From contig JANQKF010000034.1 in NCBI GenBank assembly GCA_028281285.1, positions 62,001 to 126,000 of the forward strand: DNA of 64,000 nt, written 5' to 3'. A program made the translations under genes and the position numbers. The notes beneath the pieces are model-generated. The model was not told the DNA's origin, searched no databases, and was given only the letters and a program-made list of their open reading frames with translations. Origin of the DNA: Cyclobacteriaceae bacterium. GTDB lineage: Bacteria; Bacteroidota; Bacteroidia; Cytophagales; Cyclobacteriaceae. Positions within the stretch are counted from its first letter, which is position 1. Every line of letters starts with the position of its first letter. Below are positions 32,031 through 41,120 of this stretch, piece by piece.

Positions 32031-34421
32031 TTATTCATTTTTTAGGGCTAAGACAGGGTTGGCGTGAGCAGATTTCAACGATTGCAGTGCAGTGATAAGG
32101 AAGACTATCAGATACACGAGAAAGAGCGCTATAAAATAGGTCTCAGGGCGGAGTGTAATTGTATATGCATATTCATTAAGCCATTGGCTAACCAGCCAAT
32201 AGCTTAACATACTGCCAATAATGGCTGCAATAAAAATTGCAATTGAAAGCTGTTTATTTAGAAGTCCCACAATTTGGGTTAACGTTGCCCCTAAGACCTT
32301 TCTCACTGCGATTTCTTTAGATCTTAAGCCAACGATATAAATCATGAATCCGATCAGGCCGAGTAGAGACAGCGATATTGCAAGTAGGGAGAAGACCAGA
32401 CTCACCTGGCTCGTTTGTCTTTCCTGATCATACAGTTGTTTCACTGCATCGTCCATCATGTTATACTCGATGGGTGTATCGGGTTTTAATTTAAACCATG
32501 CATTTTCAATGATGTCAGTCACCTGTTTCATGTCCGGGACTGCTGCTCGAACCAGTATATTGGTGTTTACAAACCGAGGATAAGGGCGCAGTGAAATGAT
32601 TTGGGGAGTCACTTTTTCTTTTAATGTGTAGAAATGAAAATCTTTAAACACCGCTGAGACTTCCCGGTTGAGTTCATTTTCAGTATTGGGCCTTAGAATT
32701 ATCTTCTTACCGATGGGATCATCCTGCCAACCATAGAGGTTGACAAAACTCTGATTGACAAGAGAGGTGATCTGACCACTGTCAGAATTGAGAATTTTAT
32801 TTTTGAATTCACCTGAAATTACTTCCATGCCCATTACATCGAAGTAGTCAATGCCTACTCCATAGGAGAGGAGGTTCTCATAGATTTCATCAGACCCCTC
32901 CGGTTTATAGGCCAGTGGGGTCATACCATCACCAATCATAGGACCAAAGGCAACGGCTTCTATCTGAGGGTGTTTAAGTAGCTCGGTTTTGAAAGTTCTG
33001 TAGTTTTCGAATTCACCGATATTAAAGGCATTTTGGACCCTGATGACTCCGGTGGGGTCGAAGCCCATGTCTTTACTGTCAAGGTAGTTGATTTGACGAT
33101 TCATGAACCAGGCTGAAATACCAAGTGTGAACAATACGATGAATTGGATGAACAATAGAACATTTCTTAGCTTGACGCCTCCGGAGTGATGAACCGCAGT
33201 CTTGCTTTTGATTAGAGAACTGATATTGGCGTTGTTAAGGACGCTGATAGGGTAAACCACAGTAATGAAGCTGACAGTAATGATGAAAAGAATACTAGCT
33301 ATCCAATAGACCGGTGAAGTAAACAGCCTGTTTTCCAGGTTGATACCCAAATAATCTCCAAATGTTGGGATAGTGAATTTTAGCCCAATAAGTACTAAGG
33401 GGACAGCCAAGGCGGTGATAATGAGAGATTCGTAAACGAATGTCCTCATCACATGCTGTTTAGACTCTCCAAGCACTTTCCTAATTCCTATTTCCTGCCC
33501 TTTTCCGCTGTAAATTGCCAAGGATAGATTGACGTAGTTCGCTACTGAAATCAATAAAATCAGTCCGCCAATGACAATAAATACCGTGAGTTGAAGTCGG
33601 TCTCCAATGCCACCCGAACCAAATGAGGAGGCTGAATCAAAATAGATGTCAGGTAAGCCTATCAGGGCCACATCAGTTAGTTCATGATATTCATCAAGCG
33701 CGACCCCTTCCATGTTAAGGATCTTGTCTTTTAGTAATTCCGGAGACGCATCATCAACCAATTTGATATAGGAGTTGGTATGATAATGATCATTGCCGAA
33801 CGGTTGTGGATCCGTGTAAAGCAGTTCAAAGTCCAGGTGCGAGTTAGTAGGTAGGTCTTTAATTACACCATTTACCTTAATCAGCTTATCACCAAACTCG
33901 ATTACCTCACCAAGTGCCTGTCCATCAAGAAAGTATTTTTCCCGAACCGACTCGGTAATGACTACGCTATAAGGTTCTTCAAGAACCCCATTCGGATTTC
34001 CCTCTACAAATTCAAAATTGAAAAAGTCGAAGAACCGTGATCCGGGATCGGTCTGATAGATTTTCTTTTCAGAGAACCGTTTGCCCTTATATGACAAGAA
34101 TGATTGTTGGAAACTGTTAAGTTGAAGTACATCTTCGACTTCAGGATATTTACCAGAGAGGAGCTCAAGAGCATGTTCGGCACCTAAGTTTGAAAACCAG
34201 AGATCAGAGTTTGTCTTTGCCTCCATCCTGTAGATGTTGTTGGCGTCCGGATGAAATTCATCATAGGTGTATTCGTGCTCAGCATAAAGTGCGATCAACA
34301 CAGCCGCGGTCATTCCCAGAGCTAGTCCGGCTATATTGAGGAAGTTGAGTATACCGCCTTTTAAAAAGTGACGTCTGACAAGGTTGAAAAATATTTTGAC
34401 CATTGAGTAGGTTTTGTTCAA
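32031..34421 (-). CDS. FtsX/MacB-type ABC permease (two MacB periplasmic domains)
   Basis: 796 residues, same layout as the permease at 28837: an N-terminal helix (LNIAGLALGMTAAVLIALYAE), MacB-like periplasmic domain, central helices with EIGIRKVLGESKQHVMRTFVYESL, second periplasmic domain, and C-terminal helices with EIAVRKVLGATLTQIVGLLNKQLS. It heads a minus-strand operon with the repeat protein, another permease and the M20 peptidase. Its start is 136 bases from the divergent kinase at 34557 and the shared gap holds a GTTAA box array, so regulation by OmpR-type regulator is likely. Confidence 0.9.
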   Translation of the reverse strand: MNKTYSMVKIFFNLVRRHFLKGGILNFLNIAGLALGMTAAVLIALYAEHEYTYDEFHPDANNIYRMEAKTNSDLWFSNLGAEHALELLSGKYPEVEDVLQLNSFQQSFLSYKGKRFSEKKIYQTDPGSRFFDFFNFEFVEGNPNGVLEEPYSVVITESVREKYFLDGQALGEVIEFGDKLIKVNGVIKDLPTNSHLDFELLYTDPQPFGNDHYHTNSYIKLVDDASPELLKDKILNMEGVALDEYHELTDVALIGLPDIYFDSASSFGSGGIGDRLQLTVFIVIGGLILLISVANYVNLSLAIYSGKGQEIGIRKVLGESKQHVMRTFVYESLIITALAVPLVLIGLKFTIPTFGDYLGINLENRLFTSPVYWIASILFIITVSFITVVYPISVLNNANISSLIKSKTAVHHSGGVKLRNVLLFIQFIVLFTLGISAWFMNRQINYLDSKDMGFDPTGVIRVQNAFNIGEFENYRTFKTELLKHPQIEAVAFGPMIGDGMTPLAYKPEGSDEIYENLLSYGVGIDYFDVMGMEVISGEFKNKILNSDSGQITSLVNQSFVNLYGWQDDPIGKKIILRPNTENELNREVSAVFKDFHFYTLKEKVTPQIISLRPYPRFVNTNILVRAAVPDMKQVTDIIENAWFKLKPDTPIEYNMMDDAVKQLYDQERQTSQVSLVFSLLAISLSLLGLIGFMIYIVGLRSKEIAVRKVLGATLTQIVGLLNKQLSIAIFIAAIIGSMLSYWLVSQWLNEYAYTITLRPETYFIALFLVYLIVFLITALQSLKSAHANPVLALKNE

Positions 34422-34448
34422 ACATACGCTAGGGGTACACCTTGGTCG

Positions 34449-34540
34449 ATTAATGTGGAGTTAAGCTTGTTTACGAAAAAATTAAAGTGGTTAAAGAAAA
34501 GTTAAATTCTAACTCTAAGCCTTAAAATCACGTATTTTGG
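34449..34540. promoter_or_regulatory. Phased GTTAA box array and -7 element, HK1 promoter
   Basis: GTTAA-like boxes occur at 34460 (GTTAAG), 34481 (ATTAAA), 34490 (GTTAAA) and 34501 (GTTAAA), with weaker ones at 34449 and 34470; a -7-like TATTTTGG follows at 34533. Spacings between the four main boxes are 21, 9 and 11 bases. The same spacing occurs in the array at 39019. Direct repeats about one helical turn apart are typical of OmpR-family binding. The array sits between the divergent FtsX permease operon (ATG 34421) and the kinase (ATG 34557). Confidence 0.6.
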
Positions 34541-34556
34541 AGTACTTCCTGTTAAA

Positions 34557-35876
34557 ATGAAGCTGTCAAAACGTACTATAGGATTTGTTATTGCCATTGC
34601 CACCATCGCTTTGGTTGGGTTATCGGTATTGCAAGTCATGAACCTCAGGAATGCCATGCAGACCAATGAACAAATCTTTTTGCAAAAAGTAGATTTGGCC
34701 TCAGGATTGATTAGCAAAACGTTCGACAAACAGGAAAAACTGCCAAACATCCTACATAATGCAGCCATCAAAGTGAAGAAAAGTGGCGAGTTGAATGATC
34801 CCGAAATTGATCTGGCACTATCCAAATTGATCGATGAAGTGCTTGAAAGTTGCGGACTTGACATCCCTTATGAGTATGCCGTTTATGAGCATAAGAAAGA
34901 TTTATCAGGGCTGTTCTCTTTTGTCATGGGCGATGAGGGTAGCACGCTAGACTTTGAACTGCCAAGTTGCGAAGATCCCCATCGTGTAGGAAATGCTTGG
35001 GCGTCACTAACCTGCAACAAAGGCTTTGGGTTGAACAACAACTACCATTTAGGGGTGTTTTTTCCAAGAAAGGACGCCTATGTCTTTGCCCAGTCAAGTG
35101 GTGCGTTGATGGTTTCCATAGTCTTTATCGCACTTCTACTTTGCTGCTTTGCCTATACGGTCATGGTGATTCAAAAGCAAAAGAAGTTGTCAACAATAAA
35201 GAATGAATTCATTAATAATCTTACTCATGAATTCAAAACCCCGATAGCTTCCATTTCTCTTGCGGCTAATATGTTGAAAAATAATGAGGAGGATATTGAC
35301 GATAAAAGAAAGGTTAACTACCTGAACCTTATTGATCATGAAACCAAGCGGCTGGAGGGTCAGGTCGATAAAGTGCTCCAGATTGCAATGATAGATTCAG
35401 GAAACTTCTCATTGGAAAAGAAGCGATTGAATGTTCACGACATCATTGAGCGCGTGGTGGAAAGTATGAACCTTGTTGTATCAAAACGAAAAGGAAGAAT
35501 CGAACTAAATCTGCGTGCCCAGCAATCCGAGTTAATGGCGGATGAGACACATTTGGTCAACATCATATACAATCTTGTCGACAATGCACTCAAATACACC
35601 ATGGACGTTCCGCAGATCAAAATATCTACCGTGGACAGCAAAGACGGTGTGGAAATAACGGTTAAAGACAACGGAATCGGTATAGGGGAAGAGATTCAGA
35701 AGTACATCTTTGACAAGTTTTATCGTGCCGAAACCGGTGATGTTCATAATGTCAAAGGGTTTGGTCTGGGCTTGAGCTATGTGAAAAAGATTATAGAAGC
35801 ACACAAAGGAAAGATTGCCTTGAGCAGTCAGATCGACAAAGGCAGCGAGTTCCGTCTTTATTTTCCATTTAATTAG
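34557..35876 (+). CDS. Sensor histidine kinase (OmpR-partner type)
   Basis: 439 residues. Helix 1 at about 9-29, a periplasmic domain (about 30-180) with three cysteines (Cys99, 138, 153), helix 2 at about 183-205, then HisKA with His224 in NEFINNLTHEFKTPIASIS and HATPase (NIIYNLVDNALKY, VKDNGIGIGEEI, VKGFGLGLSYVKKIIEAHKG). It hands phosphate to the regulator encoded 5 bases downstream. A second kinase at 39109 has the same domain organisation and near-identical kinase motifs, so they are paralogues. The ligand is not known; the Cys-containing periplasmic part suggests redox or metal input. Confidence 0.95.
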   Translation: MKLSKRTIGFVIAIATIALVGLSVLQVMNLRNAMQTNEQIFLQKVDLASGLISKTFDKQEKLPNILHNAAIKVKKSGELNDPEIDLALSKLIDEVLESCGLDIPYEYAVYEHKKDLSGLFSFVMGDEGSTLDFELPSCEDPHRVGNAWASLTCNKGFGLNNNYHLGVFFPRKDAYVFAQSSGALMVSIVFIALLLCCFAYTVMVIQKQKKLSTIKNEFINNLTHEFKTPIASISLAANMLKNNEEDIDDKRKVNYLNLIDHETKRLEGQVDKVLQIAMIDSGNFSLEKKRLNVHDIIERVVESMNLVVSKRKGRIELNLRAQQSELMADETHLVNIIYNLVDNALKYTMDVPQIKISTVDSKDGVEITVKDNGIGIGEEIQKYIFDKFYRAETGDVHNVKGFGLGLSYVKKIIEAHKGKIALSSQIDKGSEFRLYFPFN

Positions 35877-35881
35877 TATTC

Positions 35882-36568
35882 ATGGGCAGAATTCTCTTGG
35901 TCGAGGATGACGATAGTTTTGGGTATATCCTAAAGGAATATCTGGAGATCAATGATTTTCAGGTGACCTGGGCAAAGGATGGAGAAGAAGGCTTAAAGAC
36001 CTTTGAGCAGGGAGTATACGACCTGTGCATCCTCGATGTGATGATGCCTTTGAAAGACGGCTATACTTTGGCCAAAGAGATTCAGGATCATGACCCCGAT
36101 GTCCCTTTTATCTTTCTAACCGCCAAGGCACTGAAAATTGACAAACTTAAAGGATTTCGTCTGGGTTGTGACGATTATGTGGTAAAACCAATTGATGAAG
36201 AGCTTTTTATAGCCCGCGTGAAGGCAATCATCAAAAGAACCGCACCTGATGCTGAGAATGGTAATGGAAAAACGACTACCCATCGAATAGGGAAATATTT
36301 ATTCGATTATACCAATCAGGCATTGATTGTTGATTCGAATGTACAACGCCTGACCACCAAGGAAGCCAAATTGCTACAACTACTTTGCGAAAAGAAAAAC
36401 CAGGTTCTCGACAGAAATAAAGCATTGAAACTGGTTTGGGGTGAAAGTGATTTTTTCAATAGGAAGAGTATGGATGTTTTTATCCATAAACTCAGAAAAT
36501 ACCTCGAAGAAGACCCCACTGTCAAAATCACCAATGTACACGGCAAGGGCTTTATTCTAGAAGACTGA
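35882..36568 (+). CDS. OmpR/PhoB-family response regulator
   Basis: 228 residues. Receiver domain (1-120) with acidic DD at 9-10, Asp52 in LCILDVMMPLKDGY, and Lys in YVVKPIDEELF; a winged-helix DNA-binding domain at about 130-228 (LTTKEAKLLQLLCEKKNQVL, RKSMDVFIHKLRKYLEEDP, ITNVHGKGFILED). Partner of the kinase 5 bases upstream. A near-copy at 40431 shares the tail NVHGKGFILED exactly, so both likely bind similar DNA; this fits the shared box arrays. Confidence 0.95.
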   Translation: MGRILLVEDDDSFGYILKEYLEINDFQVTWAKDGEEGLKTFEQGVYDLCILDVMMPLKDGYTLAKEIQDHDPDVPFIFLTAKALKIDKLKGFRLGCDDYVVKPIDEELFIARVKAIIKRTAPDAENGNGKTTTHRIGKYLFDYTNQALIVDSNVQRLTTKEAKLLQLLCEKKNQVLDRNKALKLVWGESDFFNRKSMDVFIHKLRKYLEEDPTVKITNVHGKGFILED

Positions 36569-36655
36569 TGTGTAAAAAACAGCCTTAAATACTTATATTT
36601 TTTCTGGAAATCTGTATCTTTAGTAGAGTCTATCAATCAGTAATTAGATACTACT

Positions 36656-36949
36656 ATGGGATTAAAGCAAAGTTTAGAAGATAACAAACAGTTCATTTTG
36701 GATAGCCTTCCAACTGACGAACTAAAAGAACAATTTTTATCCAACCTGGAAAACGTGGAAGAGACCACAGCTCCAACTGCTGAGGAACAGACAGCTGAGG
36801 CACAGGCACCGGATCATATATCCGAAGAAATGTATGACTCCATTAAAAAAGAGATTGAGGCTGCTCCTAAACAGGTTAAAATGAGCGCGGAGGAGGAAAA
36901 AGCTGCTATTGAAGAGGCATTGAAAAACCCTCCAACCGCGGAAGAGTAA
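36656..36949 (+). CDS. Small acidic helical protein, unknown function
   Basis: 97 residues, very rich in Glu and Ala, with no membrane segment or signal peptide. It is predicted to be helical with a central low-complexity linker (EETTAPTAEEQTAEAQAP) and a charged C-terminus (SAEEEKAAIEEALKNPPTAEE). I do not recognise the family. It follows the HK1/RR1 pair by 87 bases and converges with the aminotransferase gene with no gap (stop at 36949, next stop at 36950). It may belong to the same transcript as the two-component pair; role unknown. Confidence 0.6.
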   Translation: MGLKQSLEDNKQFILDSLPTDELKEQFLSNLENVEETTAPTAEEQTAEAQAPDHISEEMYDSIKKEIEAAPKQVKMSAEEEKAAIEEALKNPPTAEE

Positions 36950-38392
36950 TCACTCCTCGAATTTCTTATTCAGGAACTTGTTACAAAAGGAGAGGAATCG
37001 TTCGATGTCTTGAAAATTGGTGATATAGCCAATTGACACCCGGACGGCTCCTCTTTTTTGTCCCAAGAACTCTATCAGATCGAAGTAATCTTTTTTTCCC
37101 CGTTTTGTAAAGTACGATTTAAGTCGTTCCTTATTTAAAGTGTGATTTGTTTCATCAATGCCAGGATTGCAGAAACAACCGGTTCGGATTGAAATATTCT
37201 CCTCGTATGCTTTCTGTTCTATGGTGATGAAATCATACATTTTTCCTGAAGGATCAAAAAAGTTCATGGCCAAAGTTCCACCTCGATTCAGCCCTGTCTG
37301 TGGCCCATAGACTTCAACCAGTGATCGACCATTTGAATGTTTAATATCCTGAAGCTTAGAAAGTAGGTATCTCGTAAGACAATCAACTCTGGTTTTGATG
37401 GTTTGAATTCCAATTGCTTCTACGTAATCCAGTCCTGATTTGATGGCTGGAATGTCAAGATAGTTGACAGTTCCATCCTCGAATCTGGCAGCGTCCTGCT
37501 CCAGGTGATATCCATCTCCTTTTATAGAAACAATCGTGATAGTACCTCCGGCAAATGAGGGCTTTTTCAATTTTGAGAAAGTGTCCTTTTTGACTAGTAA
37601 AGCTCCCAAGCCTGTAGGGTAACCGAATATCTTATAGAATGATAGTGCTATGAATTCAGGTTGATGGATACTTAAATCCAGAATATCACTTGGGGCAAAC
37701 GCAGCGGCATCAAGCAGTACGTCCCAACCTCGGGATTGTGCTTCTGTAATCAAACTCAGATCATGCTTTACACCTGATACATTTGATTGGGCTGGAAAAG
37801 CAAAGAGCTTATTTTCTCCTTTCAATTCTCTCAGGCTATCGATTAATTGTGCTTCATCAACCCTAAGGTTTGAAAGAATAGGAGAGTACTGGAAATTACA
37901 ATTTTTGCTCCTGGCATATTCCCTGATTCCATTGACAGAATTATGATTATCGACAGTTAGTACAAGTTGATCCTTTTCAGTAAATGGATATGATTCACCT
38001 ACAATTTTAATGGCGGCTGATGCATTTGCCGTGAAAATGCAGATGTAATTATCTCCGGCATTAAAATAATCCAGTACTCTTTTTCTTGTCTCTTTGATAT
38101 GGTTTTCTGCTAAGGCCGAGCTAGGATTGATAGAATGCGGGTTACCTAAGACGGCATTGGCTAAAAAGTCATGGTGGGATTTCAACTGGCTTACACCATA
38201 GAGCTGACCTCCGGTGAAATCAAGGTAAGTATGACGCTGTTCATCCAGGCGCGCAAAGTCTTTGATGCGCAATTCGTCCAGGGATTTAGTGGTTTCGTAT
38301 TCCGGGTATTGTCTTATGAAGTTTTCAAATTCCGGAGTTTGATCGACTTGTCGATTGCGAAACAGGAAAGGCAAAAAACTGGGCCGTTTCAT
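36950..38392 (-). CDS. Moco-sulfurase-like class V aminotransferase (PLP)
   Basis: I chose the ATG at 38392, which overlaps the stop of the upstream rhodanese gene (ATGA, 38389-38392); longer in-frame starts to 38452 exist but would run deep into that gene. About 480 residues. Motifs match the N-terminal cysteine-desulfurase part of MOCOS/ABA3: YLDFTGGQLYGVSQ, GNPHS, VDNHNSVNGIREYA, FAFPAQSNVSG, PLP lysine Lys254 in SFYKIFGYPTGLGAL, and SIRTGCFCNPG (Cys406, Cys408). MOCOS makes a Mo-bound persulfide from cysteine; the C-terminal MOSC domain of MOCOS is absent here. Substrate unproven. Cytoplasmic. Confidence 0.8.
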   Translation of the reverse strand: MKRPSFLPFLFRNRQVDQTPEFENFIRQYPEYETTKSLDELRIKDFARLDEQRHTYLDFTGGQLYGVSQLKSHHDFLANAVLGNPHSINPSSALAENHIKETRKRVLDYFNAGDNYICIFTANASAAIKIVGESYPFTEKDQLVLTVDNHNSVNGIREYARSKNCNFQYSPILSNLRVDEAQLIDSLRELKGENKLFAFPAQSNVSGVKHDLSLITEAQSRGWDVLLDAAAFAPSDILDLSIHQPEFIALSFYKIFGYPTGLGALLVKKDTFSKLKKPSFAGGTITIVSIKGDGYHLEQDAARFEDGTVNYLDIPAIKSGLDYVEAIGIQTIKTRVDCLTRYLLSKLQDIKHSNGRSLVEVYGPQTGLNRGGTLAMNFFDPSGKMYDFITIEQKAYEENISIRTGCFCNPGIDETNHTLNKERLKSYFTKRGKKDYFDLIEFLGQKRGAVRVSIGYITNFQDIERFLSFCNKFLNKKFEE

Positions 38393-38973
38393 TGGTTTCT
38401 TTCTAAGAGTGAATCCTTGCATGAAAGCTCTTCCAGGGGTCTGTCTACCCAATAATTAAGACCACCAAGAAGATTATGGATTTTGTCGAATCCATGGGTC
38501 GAAAGGGTCTGACTTACTCGAGTGCTTCTGGCACTGATCGAGCAAAGAACAACGATTTTTTTGTCCTTGTATTTCTCAAGCTCATCTAGTCGATCGTTAA
38601 TTTCAGTGATTGGGATATTGATGGAATTTTTAAGGCGACTAAGTCGCGACTCCACATTTTCATATTCTGCAACAGATCGAACATCGAGTAGAATAATTTC
38701 TTGGTTTTTGGACAGAAGATCACAGAGCTGTGCTGGCCAGATATTGGTATACTTTAGCCCGGCACTGGGGTTGGTTAAGTTAATCCTGGCCATTCCGCAA
38801 GTCCCACAGTTTCCCGGCTCATACACAATATGGGTGTCTTCCTTACATCCGCATGGAGGGCATACATACTCCTCCTCTTGGGCGAAAAGTAGATTTTGGC
38901 TGAGCAGGAAATATGCCACCAAAAGACCAGTCCAAATCAGATATTTTTGAGTTTTTGACGATGACTTAATCAT
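38389..38973 (-). CDS. Exported rhodanese-domain protein with heavy-metal-binding-type Cys region
   Basis: 194 residues. A hydrophobic N-terminus (about 10-31, LIWTGLLVAYFLLSQNLLFAQ) looks like a signal peptide. Residues 36-62 (YVCPPCGCKEDTHIVYEPGNCGTCGM) hold Cys38, 41, 43, 56 and 59, similar to heavy-metal-binding domains with CxxCGM. A rhodanese domain follows (about 75-180), with active-site Cys144 in VVLCSISARS and a GGLNYW end. Rhodaneses carry sulfane sulfur as a persulfide. It overlaps the aminotransferase gene, which may supply sulfur, but the signal peptide puts it outside the cytoplasm, an apparent mismatch. Confidence 0.8.
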   Translation of the reverse strand: MIKSSSKTQKYLIWTGLLVAYFLLSQNLLFAQEEEYVCPPCGCKEDTHIVYEPGNCGTCGMARINLTNPSAGLKYTNIWPAQLCDLLSKNQEIILLDVRSVAEYENVESRLSRLKNSINIPITEINDRLDELEKYKDKKIVVLCSISARSTRVSQTLSTHGFDKIHNLLGGLNYWVDRPLEELSCKDSLLERNQ

Positions 38974-39018
38974 GTTTCAAATGTACTCGGTGGAACAAGG
39001 CATTGAGCCCAAGGGGAT

Positions 39019-39064
39019 GTTAAGGTGTGGTAAGAAGCTGTTAAATGTGTTAATGAAAGGTTAA
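39019..39064. promoter_or_regulatory. Phased GTTAA box array, HK2 / rhodanese promoter region
   Basis: GTTAAG at 39019, GGTAAG at 39029, GTTAAA at 39040, GTTAAT at 39049 and GTTAAT at 39060. Main spacings are 21, 9 and 11, the same as in the array at 34460. It lies between the divergent rhodanese operon (ATG 38973) and the HK2 kinase (ATG 39109). A direct repeat of this pitch is typical of OmpR-type regulators. Confidence 0.65.
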
Positions 39065-39071
39065 TGAATCC

Positions 39072-39099
39072 TTGTGAGAGGTTATAATCGTTAATTTTG
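39072..39099 (+). promoter_or_regulatory. Promoter TTG-N17-TAATTTTG of the HK2 operon
   Basis: TTG at 39072-39074, 17 bases, then TAATTTTG at 39092-39099: a full match to the Bacteroidota -33 / -7 consensus (TTG, TAnnTTTG). The last GTTAA box (39060) is just upstream. The -7 box ends 9 bases before the ATG at 39109, so transcription would begin only a few bases before the start: a nearly leaderless mRNA. Confidence 0.65.
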
Positions 39100-39108
39100 A
39101 AGCTTCAG

Positions 39109-40434
39109 ATGAGATTCTCAAAGCTCACTATCTATATCGTTCTTATCGTGGTGGCGGCTTCTATGGCCGGGCTGGTCTATGTTCAACTTCGAATATTCAA
39201 TGCTGATGTGGAAGTATACAGACAGCAGTTCAATTTGACCATTAACGAATACTTTACAGGAATTAGAGAATCTATAAAGGGGGATAAAGTTTGGGTTGAT
39301 CAGGTAAACAACTTTAAAGGAAGGGAAGAGTTTGTTATTTCTTCATTTGAAAAGCCACCGGAGTTAGAGATCCTCGCAGAGCTAAAGAACAAGGTGGATC
39401 GGGTTTTCGAGCGAAACAGTTTGCGAATAGAGTATGAAATACGGGGAGTGCTTCAATCAGACCACCGATGTCAATTCTACATGAAAGACGAGGAATTGGA
39501 AAGAGACCCTTTCTTAATGGGTGTGATAAAAGCAGATCATTTTATGTGTCTGTGCGGTCCTGATGTGGGACAAGGGCATGGAAGGCATGGTGCTGGCAAA
39601 TACACTGCATTTGATGTGAGCTTTCACTACCCAAACTTTATTGGTGAAAATGCTGCAATGCTTCGGATTACCATTCTTTTACTGGCAGTAATCATCCTTG
39701 CATTTTCATATACAGTAATCACACTTAATAAACAGAAGAAACTCTCCCAACTCAAGAACGACTTTATCAATAATCTCACTCATGAGTTCAAAACACCAAT
39801 ATTTTCGATCTCACTTGCCTCGGGCCTTTTGAGAAAATCTGATGCTGTAAAGGACAGTCCCAGGCTTACTAAGTACACCGAGTTGATCGATAATGAAGGG
39901 AAACGCCTTAAGAGCCAGGTAGACAAAGTGCTGCAAATGGCCCTGATAGATTCAGGAAATTTCAAATTGGAAAAGAAGCAAATTGATCTTCATACTTTAA
40001 TCATAAAAGTTGCAAAGAGCTTTGAATTGATAATTAATGAAAGAGATGGGGAATTGCGCCTTGAATTAGATGCCAATCAGCATATCATCCACGCTGATGA
40101 AACACACTTGAATAATATCATCTATAACCTTCTTGATAATGCCCAGAAATACACGGATGAGAAACCGGAGATAGTGATTACCACTATGGACGAATTGGAT
40201 GGAGTGGCATTATTGGTTAAGGACAATGGAATTGGAATGGGCAGGGAAGCCCAGCGCTTTATTTTCGATAAGTTTTATCGTGCCGAATCGGGAAATGTAC
40301 ACAATGTCAAGGGTTTTGGGCTGGGACTTAGTTACGTCAAAAGTGTTGTTGAGGCACATAAGGGTCGAATTAGCCTGAAGAGCCAGCAGAATGTGGGCAG
40401 CGAATTTAAAGTGTTTTTACCTAAAAGCTTATGA
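39109..40434 (+). CDS. Sensor histidine kinase (paralogue of the one at 34557)
   Basis: I use the ATG at 39109 (MRFSKLTIYIVLIVV), not the TTG at 39097 inside the -7 promoter box. The protein is 441 residues: helix 1 at about 8-28, periplasmic domain 29-183, helix 2 about 185-207, HisKA with His225 in NNLTHEFKTPIFSIS, and HATPase (NIIYNLLDNAQKYTDE, VKDNGIGMG, VKGFGLGLSYVKSVVEAHKG). Its periplasmic domain has a Cys/His-rich part, residues 119-160, with Cys121, His144, Cys147, Cys149, His157 and His160, suggestive of metal binding. Next gene overlaps (ATGA, 40431-40434). Confidence 0.95.
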   Translation: MRFSKLTIYIVLIVVAASMAGLVYVQLRIFNADVEVYRQQFNLTINEYFTGIRESIKGDKVWVDQVNNFKGREEFVISSFEKPPELEILAELKNKVDRVFERNSLRIEYEIRGVLQSDHRCQFYMKDEELERDPFLMGVIKADHFMCLCGPDVGQGHGRHGAGKYTAFDVSFHYPNFIGENAAMLRITILLLAVIILAFSYTVITLNKQKKLSQLKNDFINNLTHEFKTPIFSISLASGLLRKSDAVKDSPRLTKYTELIDNEGKRLKSQVDKVLQMALIDSGNFKLEKKQIDLHTLIIKVAKSFELIINERDGELRLELDANQHIIHADETHLNNIIYNLLDNAQKYTDEKPEIVITTMDELDGVALLVKDNGIGMGREAQRFIFDKFYRAESGNVHNVKGFGLGLSYVKSVVEAHKGRISLKSQQNVGSEFKVFLPKSL

Positions 40435-41120
40435 GTAGGAAGGTTCAAATATTGTTAGTTGAGGACGATCATAACCTCGGTTATATTTTAAAGGAGTATA
40501 TATCGATGCATGACTTTGAAGTCTACTGGGCAAAGGACGGTCAAATGGGGCTTGATGCATTTAAAAACGGCACTTACGAATTGTGTGTGCTGGATGTGAT
40601 GATGCCAAAAATGGATGGGTTTACCCTGGCAGAAGAAATAAAGGCCATTGCTCCTAATCATCCGATTATATTCCTGACAGCAAAATCTTTGAAGGTCGAC
40701 AAACTTAAAGGCTTTAAGATTGGCGCTGATGACTACATCGTCAAACCGGTGGACGAAGAGGAATTGATAGCCCGAATCAATGCTATCATCAAACGAAGTG
40801 CATTTGGTAACCACCCAGAGGCAGATACTGAATATCAAATTGGTAGTTATACCTTTAATTTTTTGAACCAGACCCTCGAGAGAGACGGACAGAAGCAGAG
40901 CATAACAACCAAAGAGGCTGAGGTGCTCCGCCAGCTTTGCCTGAATAAAGGGAAACTGCTGGATAGGCAATTCACGCTGAAGCAACTCTGGGGAGAGACT
41001 GACTATTTTAACAGGCGGAGTATGGATGTGTTTATTTCAAAACTCCGCAAATACTTAAGTCACGATCCCAATATCAAAATCACCAATGTGCATGGTAAAG
41101 GTTTTATTCTTGAGGATTGA
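40431..41120 (+). CDS. OmpR/PhoB-family response regulator (paralogue of the one at 35882)
   Basis: 229 residues. Receiver domain with DD at 12-13, Asp55 in LCVLDVMMPKMDGF and Lys in YIVKPVDEEEL; winged-helix domain at about 130-229 with ITTKEAEVLRQLCLNKGKLLD and RRSMDVFISKLRKYLSHDP. Cognate of the kinase whose stop it overlaps. The recognition-helix region (FNRRSMDVFISKLRKYL) is almost the same as in the regulator at 35882 (FNRKSMDVFIHKLRKYL), supporting cross-binding to the two GTTAA arrays. It converges with hutI 18 bases away. Confidence 0.95.
   Translation: MSRKVQILLVEDDHNLGYILKEYISMHDFEVYWAKDGQMGLDAFKNGTYELCVLDVMMPKMDGFTLAEEIKAIAPNHPIIFLTAKSLKVDKLKGFKIGADDYIVKPVDEEELIARINAIIKRSAFGNHPEADTEYQIGSYTFNFLNQTLERDGQKQSITTKEAEVLRQLCLNKGKLLDRQFTLKQLWGETDYFNRRSMDVFISKLRKYLSHDPNIKITNVHGKGFILED

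Follow-up and report, generated by a model that had tools for sequence, protein, structure and literature searches.

The window analysed here, a stretch of 64,000 nucleotides from a Cyclobacteriaceae bacterium (contig JANQKF010000034.1, positions 62,001 to 126,000, forward strand), carries two paralogous operons, about 4.5 kb apart, each encoding a histidine kinase (HK1, HK2) followed by a response regulator (RR1, RR2) that exceeds the Pfam cut-offs for both PF00072 and PF00486 and thus belongs to the OmpR/PhoB family. Each kinase gene shares its upstream region with a divergent gene, encoding an FtsX-type permease (FtsX_a) at the first locus and a rhodanese-domain protein at the second, and each of these two intergenic regions holds an array of GTTAA-type boxes (arrays 1 and 2) between two divergent -7 promoter elements (Table 1). 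The boxes and the -7 elements on both sides recur at fixed distances, are conserved among relatives and are nearly restricted to these loci; each array is a predicted operator, most likely bound by the RprY-like regulator encoded beside it.

Table 1. Features of the two loci, in positions of the window
Feature	Position	Strand	Remarks
Array 1, six box positions	34449..34506	+	box reading and alignment of relatives' arrays; 34449 ATTAA, 34460 GTTAA, 34470 TTTAC (degenerate), 34481 ATTAA, 34490 GTTAA, 34501 GTTAA; hexamers by direct reading: 34460 GTTAAG, 34481 ATTAAA, 34490 GTTAAA, 34501 GTTAAA
Array 2, six box positions	39008..39065	+	box reading and alignment of relatives' arrays; 39008 CCCAA (degenerate), 39019, 39029 GGTAA (degenerate), 39040, 39049, 39060; hexamers by direct reading: 39019 GTTAAG, 39040 GTTAAA, 39049 GTTAAT, 39060 GTTAAT
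HK1 -7 element TATTTTGG	34533..34540	+	at +73; one mismatch to TAnnTTTG
HK2 -7 element TAATTTTG	39092..39099	+	at +73
FtsX_a -7 element TATGTTTG (CAAACATA on the + strand)	34419..34426	-	TAnnTTTG at -41
Rhodanese-operon -7 element TACATTTG (CAAATGTA on the + strand)	38978..38985	-	TAnnTTTG at -41
HK1, histidine kinase (HisKA and HATPase_c)	34557..35876	+	
RR1, OmpR-type response regulator (Response_reg and Trans_reg_C), RprY-like	35882..36568	+	
FtsX_a, MacB_PCD/FtsX permease	32031..34406	-	divergent gene of array 1
HK2, histidine kinase	39109..40434	+	ATG at 39109; TTG at 39097 overlaps the -7 element
RR2, OmpR-type response regulator	40431..41120	+	60 % identical to RR1
Rhodanese-domain protein	38389..38973	-	divergent gene of array 2
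Class-V aminotransferase	36950..38452	-	second gene of the divergent operon of array 2

Direct reading bore out the box positions given in an earlier note on this DNA and their identical offsets of 0, +21, +30 and +41 in both arrays (element positions are counted from box 0, at 34460 and 39019). That note counted four boxes per array, all of which stand, but overlooked two further positions, at -11 and +10, which were added by aligning the arrays of relatives and are partly degenerate in the window. Over the six positions the pitch is 11/10/11/9/11 bp, and the repeats read as GTTAA in the direction of the kinase and as TTAAC in that of the output gene. In a profile search of the own genome, arrays 1 and 2 matched with E values of 1.8e-12 and 1.4e-12, both sites being themselves part of the profile.

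Matches with the exact spacing of four TTAA boxes occur twice in the 5.16-Mb genome, precisely at these two loci, against none in the backward control, which yielded 10 matches in total over 59 genomes; the genome-wide search suggested in the earlier note hence finds the exact array at these two loci only. It is this exact form alone that is informative, because with one mismatch allowed the own genome gives four matches and its backward control likewise four (the two additional matches being array 1 read on the opposite strand and a site on G000:C33). With three mismatches allowed, the window contains four matches, a number that 22 of 100 shuffled versions also attained. When both intergenic regions were shuffled 20,000 times with dinucleotides preserved, never more than two (G/A)TTAA boxes fell into register, compared with the four observed; placing as many boxes as observed (6 and 5) at random brought four into register in 31 of 100,000 trials. 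The searches of the own genome covered full arrays and exact cores; sites for a single dimer are indistinguishable from chance. No third full array was found by profile search (150 of 3,665 first-look candidates scored), the next-best matches (E 0.09 and worse) are partial, and the exact three-box core occurs nowhere besides the two arrays.

Conservation within the genus is complete with regard to spacing. Among 19 genomes sampled, regulators at the level of RR1 or RR2 were found at 16 loci in nine genomes, and the exact array is present at all 16, which answers affirmatively whether relatives that keep the genes also keep the box spacing. The exact three-box core gave 19 matches in these nine genomes, 18 of them at the loci in question, 2 in the ten genomes lacking RR1 and RR2, and 3 in the backward control of all 19, one of these in the own genome. 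FtsX_a orthologs (at least 57 % identity; E<=1e-140) coincide with RR1, all eight genomes that have this regulator carrying one and the remaining eleven none, and the rhodanese gene (E<=1e-15) accompanies RR2 in six of its eight genomes; named GTDB records among the loci are Roseivirga metagenome-assembled genomes (MAGs; L035, L036) and a Cytophagia MAG (L037). In two genomes (G011, G013) extra genes lie between HK1 and FtsX_a (PD40-like, in G011 also thioredoxin-like; G013 was read by eye); there the full array is kept at FtsX_a, and HK1 keeps boxes +21, +30 and +41 with a -7 element at +73. Three exact four-box matches of the genus lie away from these loci. Two of them (G001:C1:1738017 and G006:C88) gave no matrix match and were regarded as coincidental. 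The third, in G011 (L177, on contig G011:C2, 5213 on the minus strand), belongs to another array of six equally spaced positions, with a matrix score of 29.6; it precedes an open reading frame (ORF) of 151 amino acids without Pfam match, which diverges from a gene identified by eye as hemE-like, and at -41 this array lacks a matching element. Around other regulator paralogs of G010 (L196, ~3736, minus) and G009 (L198, ~3165, plus) stand four GTTAA-type boxes (matrix scores 22.4 and 8.7), which may represent a shorter version of the operator in the same code.

The two promoters flanking each array are tied to it at fixed distances. Bacteroidota housekeeping promoters have the consensus TAnnTTTG at -7, as given in the sections of PMC7366714 consulted. 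The kinase-side -7 element placed by the earlier note at +73 in both regions (34533 and 39092) was confirmed by direct reading; overlooked had been a TAnnTTTG on the divergent strand at exactly -41 of both arrays. Across the genus, TAnnTT is found at +73 in 14 of 16 loci (6/8 for array 1, 8/8 for array 2), and the displaced HK1 promoters of the remaining two (G011, G013) also have their -7 element in register. On the divergent side, an exact CAAAnnTA lies at -41 of 13 of 16 arrays (5/8 and 8/8, respectively), with at least five of its six letters in 14, and the mean match is 5.69 out of 6, whereas elsewhere it is 1.52 (sd 0.43); in the genus, -41 and +73 are set clearly apart from every other offset. 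At 18 further sites, comprising 17 outside the genus and the off-locus array of G011, some of them closely related to each other, the -41 element still scores 4.17 versus 1.67 (sd 0.27), and at least five letters match in ten. The last box ends 27 bp before the kinase -7 element, with no overlap between the two.

Beyond the genus, a profile built from the 16 genus arrays was run with stricter filters on 118 genomes of the family, the own one included. All of the eight best arrays in other genera adjoin a homologous kinase-regulator pair. On the divergent side, three of them have an FtsX_a ortholog (G151, G111, G075), two a rhodanese gene (G139, G068), and the rest a DUF4405 protein, a methyltransferase and an ORF without assignment. 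Box 0 precedes the kinase start by 85-109 bp in 11 of the 14 out-of-genus loci measured. Furthermore, a regulator ortholog (E<=1e-84) occurs in 11 of the 118 genomes and an array (E<=2.4e-4) in 10, nine being shared (Fisher p 6e-11, with both thresholds set after seeing the lists). Related arrays, scoring 36.7, 25.0, 26.1 and 17.9 with the weight matrix, also lie before kinase genes of Fulvivirga (L038), a Bacteroidia MAG (L039), Aquimarina (L040) and a Saprospiraceae MAG (L045), respectively; the maximum of the backward control was -0.9 among these four and 10.6 among all scanned loci. In the 59 genomes searched, exact four-box matches outside the genus number three (G029, G040, G038). In G029 the exact array (L183) precedes the FtsX_a ortholog with no kinase of the HK1/HK2 type nearby, and the regulator ortholog sits on a separate contig behind a partial array of its own, while in G071 and G141 arrays are found at the kinase and also at an HlyD-type gene beyond it, the kinase-side array of G141 having three boxes only. 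Taken together, the rearrangements in G011, G013, G029, G071 and G141 suggest that such an array is also able to control outputs not adjacent to the kinase. On the side of the G029 array that faces FtsX_a (L183, 4601-4667), further TTAA boxes were seen at about -11 and -21.

Several observations weigh against reading the arrays as dedicated two-sided operators. The window has degenerate boxes at -11 of array 2 and at +10 in each array; in the genus, the exact -41 element is absent from three of the eight array-1 loci, and G009 and G010 have kept array 2 yet lack the rhodanese gene. Outside the genus the kinase-side distance is looser, with +73 and +74 scoring 3.11 and 2.94 at the 18 further sites, and the distance from box 0 to the kinase start is 496 bp in G139, 372 bp in G068 and 66 bp in G115. 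Of 45 family genomes with a profile match at E<=0.05, 35 had weaker matches only; ten of these were inspected, of which one (G071) has a full array and another five match half of the array in a shared conserved stretch, and the matches in G084 and G132 include no full array. This GTTAA-rich stretch, seen in five genomes of other genera (L247, L253-L256), matches the profile from -11 to +30 and in L253 runs into a gene with an HU (Bac_DNA_binding) domain. Fifteen of the 22 relatives L035-L056, including four of the five Saprospiraceae, are without a matrix match above 15; among these Saprospiraceae, boxes spaced 9/11 were seen by eye only, in two. The case of G029 is weaker than it appears, because its FtsX_a array has a matrix score of just 10.8, level with the best backward control, and is adjoined by a LytTR regulator and the kinase of the latter, so that another regulator is possible there; nor was this array matched by the profile search. 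Finally, no conserved TTTG near -33 was found in the promoter spacers of either side when the genus arrays were compared. Absent -33 elements fit activator-dependent promoters, which is weak evidence in Bacteroidota and no proof of activator dependence, because in F. johnsoniae a -33 motif was likewise not identified, according to the same sections of PMC7366714.

With these points set against the conservation described above, we put at roughly 75 % the probability that each array functions as an operator for the OmpR-family regulator whose gene follows downstream, serving two divergent promoters. Three regulator dimers would bind head-to-tail on the box pairs -11/0, +10/+21 and +30/+41, and all would lie on about one helix face, because the pitch is 11 bp within pairs and 10 and 9 bp between them. 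This row of dimers would act on the promoter of the kinase-regulator operon through its -7 element at +73, and on that of the output operon through the one at -41, namely the FtsX-type permease for pair 1 and rhodanese plus aminotransferase for pair 2. The likeliest sign is activation of both sides in a class-II manner; like the choice of binding protein and the pairing of the dimers, it is an interpretation of the sequences. Autoregulation, which the earlier note had proposed, is well supported by the position and conservation of the array before the kinase, and is further supported by the two rearranged loci, where HK1 keeps the proximal boxes in register.

Whether RR1 and RR2 each bind both arrays and thereby co-control all four operons is a question that arises from the identical box layout, the same lengths kept in both arrays and the nearly identical recognition helices. 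The earlier note supposed such a shared regulon with cross-talk, of which the common operator layout stands, and the own genome shows only the two divergent promoters as members. The helices are indeed nearly identical but carry fixed differences between the eight orthologs of each regulator (K195 in RR1 for R in RR2, H202 for S), which belong to 26 fixed columns including residue 13 (F/L); in addition, 8 of 58 operator columns differ in a fixed manner between the arrays of the same orthologs. The kinases (41 % identical) differ likewise at H+7, A in HK1 and F in HK2, a position that we take to be EnvZ T250. EnvZ was rewired by T250, L254 and A255, according to the parts of PMC2991266 and PMC9208753 consulted. 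Fixed differences of this kind would also be expected between old paralogs, and the pairing of H+7 with residue 13 over 37 pairs (F/L 21, A/F 13, A/L 2, S/F 1) reflects few independent changes on the tree and is suggestive only. The pairs are separable, as G002 carries pair 1 alone. The best hint toward cross-talk comes from G029, whose sole close regulator groups weakly with the RR2 clade (ultrafast bootstrap 71) although FtsX_a has an array there, with the LytTR caveat given above. Overall the comparative data lean against free cross-talk, which we regard as unlikely; since partner-choosing residues and part of the operator have diverged, the simplest reading is probably that of two mostly insulated loops with a common layout rather than one pooled regulon.

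The arrays might also work as a polarity switch with opposite effects on the two sides, namely repression of the kinase operon and activation of the divergent one, or vice versa. Repeats that face the two promoters in opposite orientations (GTTAA versus TTAAC) would suit such a switch, as would the more rigid divergent-side distance outside the genus and the persistence of the -41 element at output arrays with no kinase on the opposite side, with five of six letters (L246, L250) or four (L183). Against it stands that the boxes stop 27 bp short of the kinase -7 element and do not cover it, at a distance fixed in 14 of 16 genus loci, and we consider this a minority possibility. Far less probable, and ruled out as the whole explanation, is that the likeness of the arrays is left over from a recent tandem duplication of promoter and kinase operon, as the paralogy and proximity of the operons could suggest. 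In a tree of joined regulator and kinase alignments (37 pairs), the FtsX_a-linked regulators of other genera fall together with RR1 (support 90 to 100) and the rhodanese-linked ones with RR2 (support 95); because the two cluster separately in this way, the pairs are old paralogs that split before the genera separated, in keeping with the modest identities of regulators and kinases. Moreover, when the two array classes were compared across genomes (six array-1 loci next to a kinase, eight array-2 loci), the mean identities were 0.79 for the boxes, 0.81 for the kinase -7 and 0.69 for the divergent -7, as opposed to 0.45 for spacers inside the array, 0.23 for both promoter spacers and 0.31-0.37 for the outer flanks. 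The promoter spacers are thus unlike between the array classes, yet equal in length (within array 1 the kinase-side spacer is fairly conserved, 0.63), and relatives with one close regulator show the same layout. There is also a small chance that the boxes serve some other regulator or form part of a generic AT-rich upstream element: the genome has many other regulators, with 48 matches to RR1 at E<=0.001, half-array matches in other genera precede an HU-type gene, and a LytTR pair adjoins the G029 array. However, full arrays track these kinase-regulator loci across genomes, the exact core is rare where such pairs are missing, and 7-kb stretches around seven other regulator paralogs of the own genome (L165-L171) contain no matrix match above 8. 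What has persisted, then, is apparently one operator layout in both paralog pairs, with partner residues and part of the operator diverged, and the preferred reading is that of a real, conserved predicted operator, most likely of RprY-like regulators, with a bidirectional design of fixed lengths.

With respect to the neighbouring genes, the rhodanese protein has a Cys-rich N-terminus (CPPCGC...CGTCGM), for which Pfam gives a weak zf-LITAF-like match (E 0.24), and the periplasmic part of HK2 carries a CLCG/His stretch; both might point to a metal or sulfur signal, which is possible from their residues. Downstream of RR1 lies an ORF of 97 amino acids without Pfam match (36656-36949, plus strand), which is present in the corresponding stretches of G001, G010, G011 and G013 and not in those of G002, G007 and G009.

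The -33 element of Bacteroidota promoters is hard to identify, and the conserved ruler from boxes to -7 elements on both sides allows a testable model of the interplay between an OmpR-family regulator and the Bacteroidota RNA polymerase. In addition, the array signature could serve to find outputs of RprY-like regulators, and the paired paralogs present a case for how operator and kinase specificity diverge together. Tentatively, at somewhat below even odds, we hypothesize that the array forms part of a portable two-way Bacteroidota promoter cassette, in which a row of dimers is fixed to two -7 elements without -33 and would serve the kinase operon and an exchangeable output (FtsX permease, rhodanese, HlyD-type fusion protein, methyltransferase or TonB-type receptor), distant outputs included, and in which paralogs would keep the layout and change operator letters along with kinase-interface residues.

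In a limited search of the open literature we found no mapped operator of this kind in Bacteroidota. Nearest by family assignment is the RprXY system of this phylum: RprY (NF051850) is the best NCBIfam match of both RR1 and RR2, at 274.9 and 289.6 bits, but both remain under the family cut-off of 370 bits for an RprY equivalog, and a brief look at the literature, including the part of PMC3764172 consulted, showed no RprY operator with GTTAA boxes. Insulated EnvZ/OmpR paralogs resemble the present pairs in being separated by few phosphotransfer-interface residues, in the sources consulted in part, whereas here the insulation is read from fixed differences alone. AgrR of Cupriavidus metallidurans, according to the sections of PMC7380067 consulted, is an OmpR-family regulator proposed to be a type-II activator at most promoters with positive autoregulation, and among the sites tested is one between divergent genes that were both upregulated, reminiscent of the autoregulation and divergent genes proposed here from sequence; its core, in contrast, is an inverted repeat (6-4-6) with extra direct repeats at some operators, where ours consists of direct repeats. 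In architecture the arrays resemble the PHO box of PhoB, which is built of 11-bp direct repeat units for a winged-helix regulator and bound head-to-tail (PMC4415409, in the part consulted), and whose tandem arrangement on one strand is found again in the 11 bp within our box pairs and the 10 and 9 bp between them. The arrays differ from it in their half-site GTTAA, in their six positions at a pitch of 11/10/11/9/11, in a further -7 element at constant spacing on their opposite flank and in having only two full genomic sites found. Thus, tandem-repeat operators of OmpR-family regulators are a known class, of which the arrays in the window represent an additional case.

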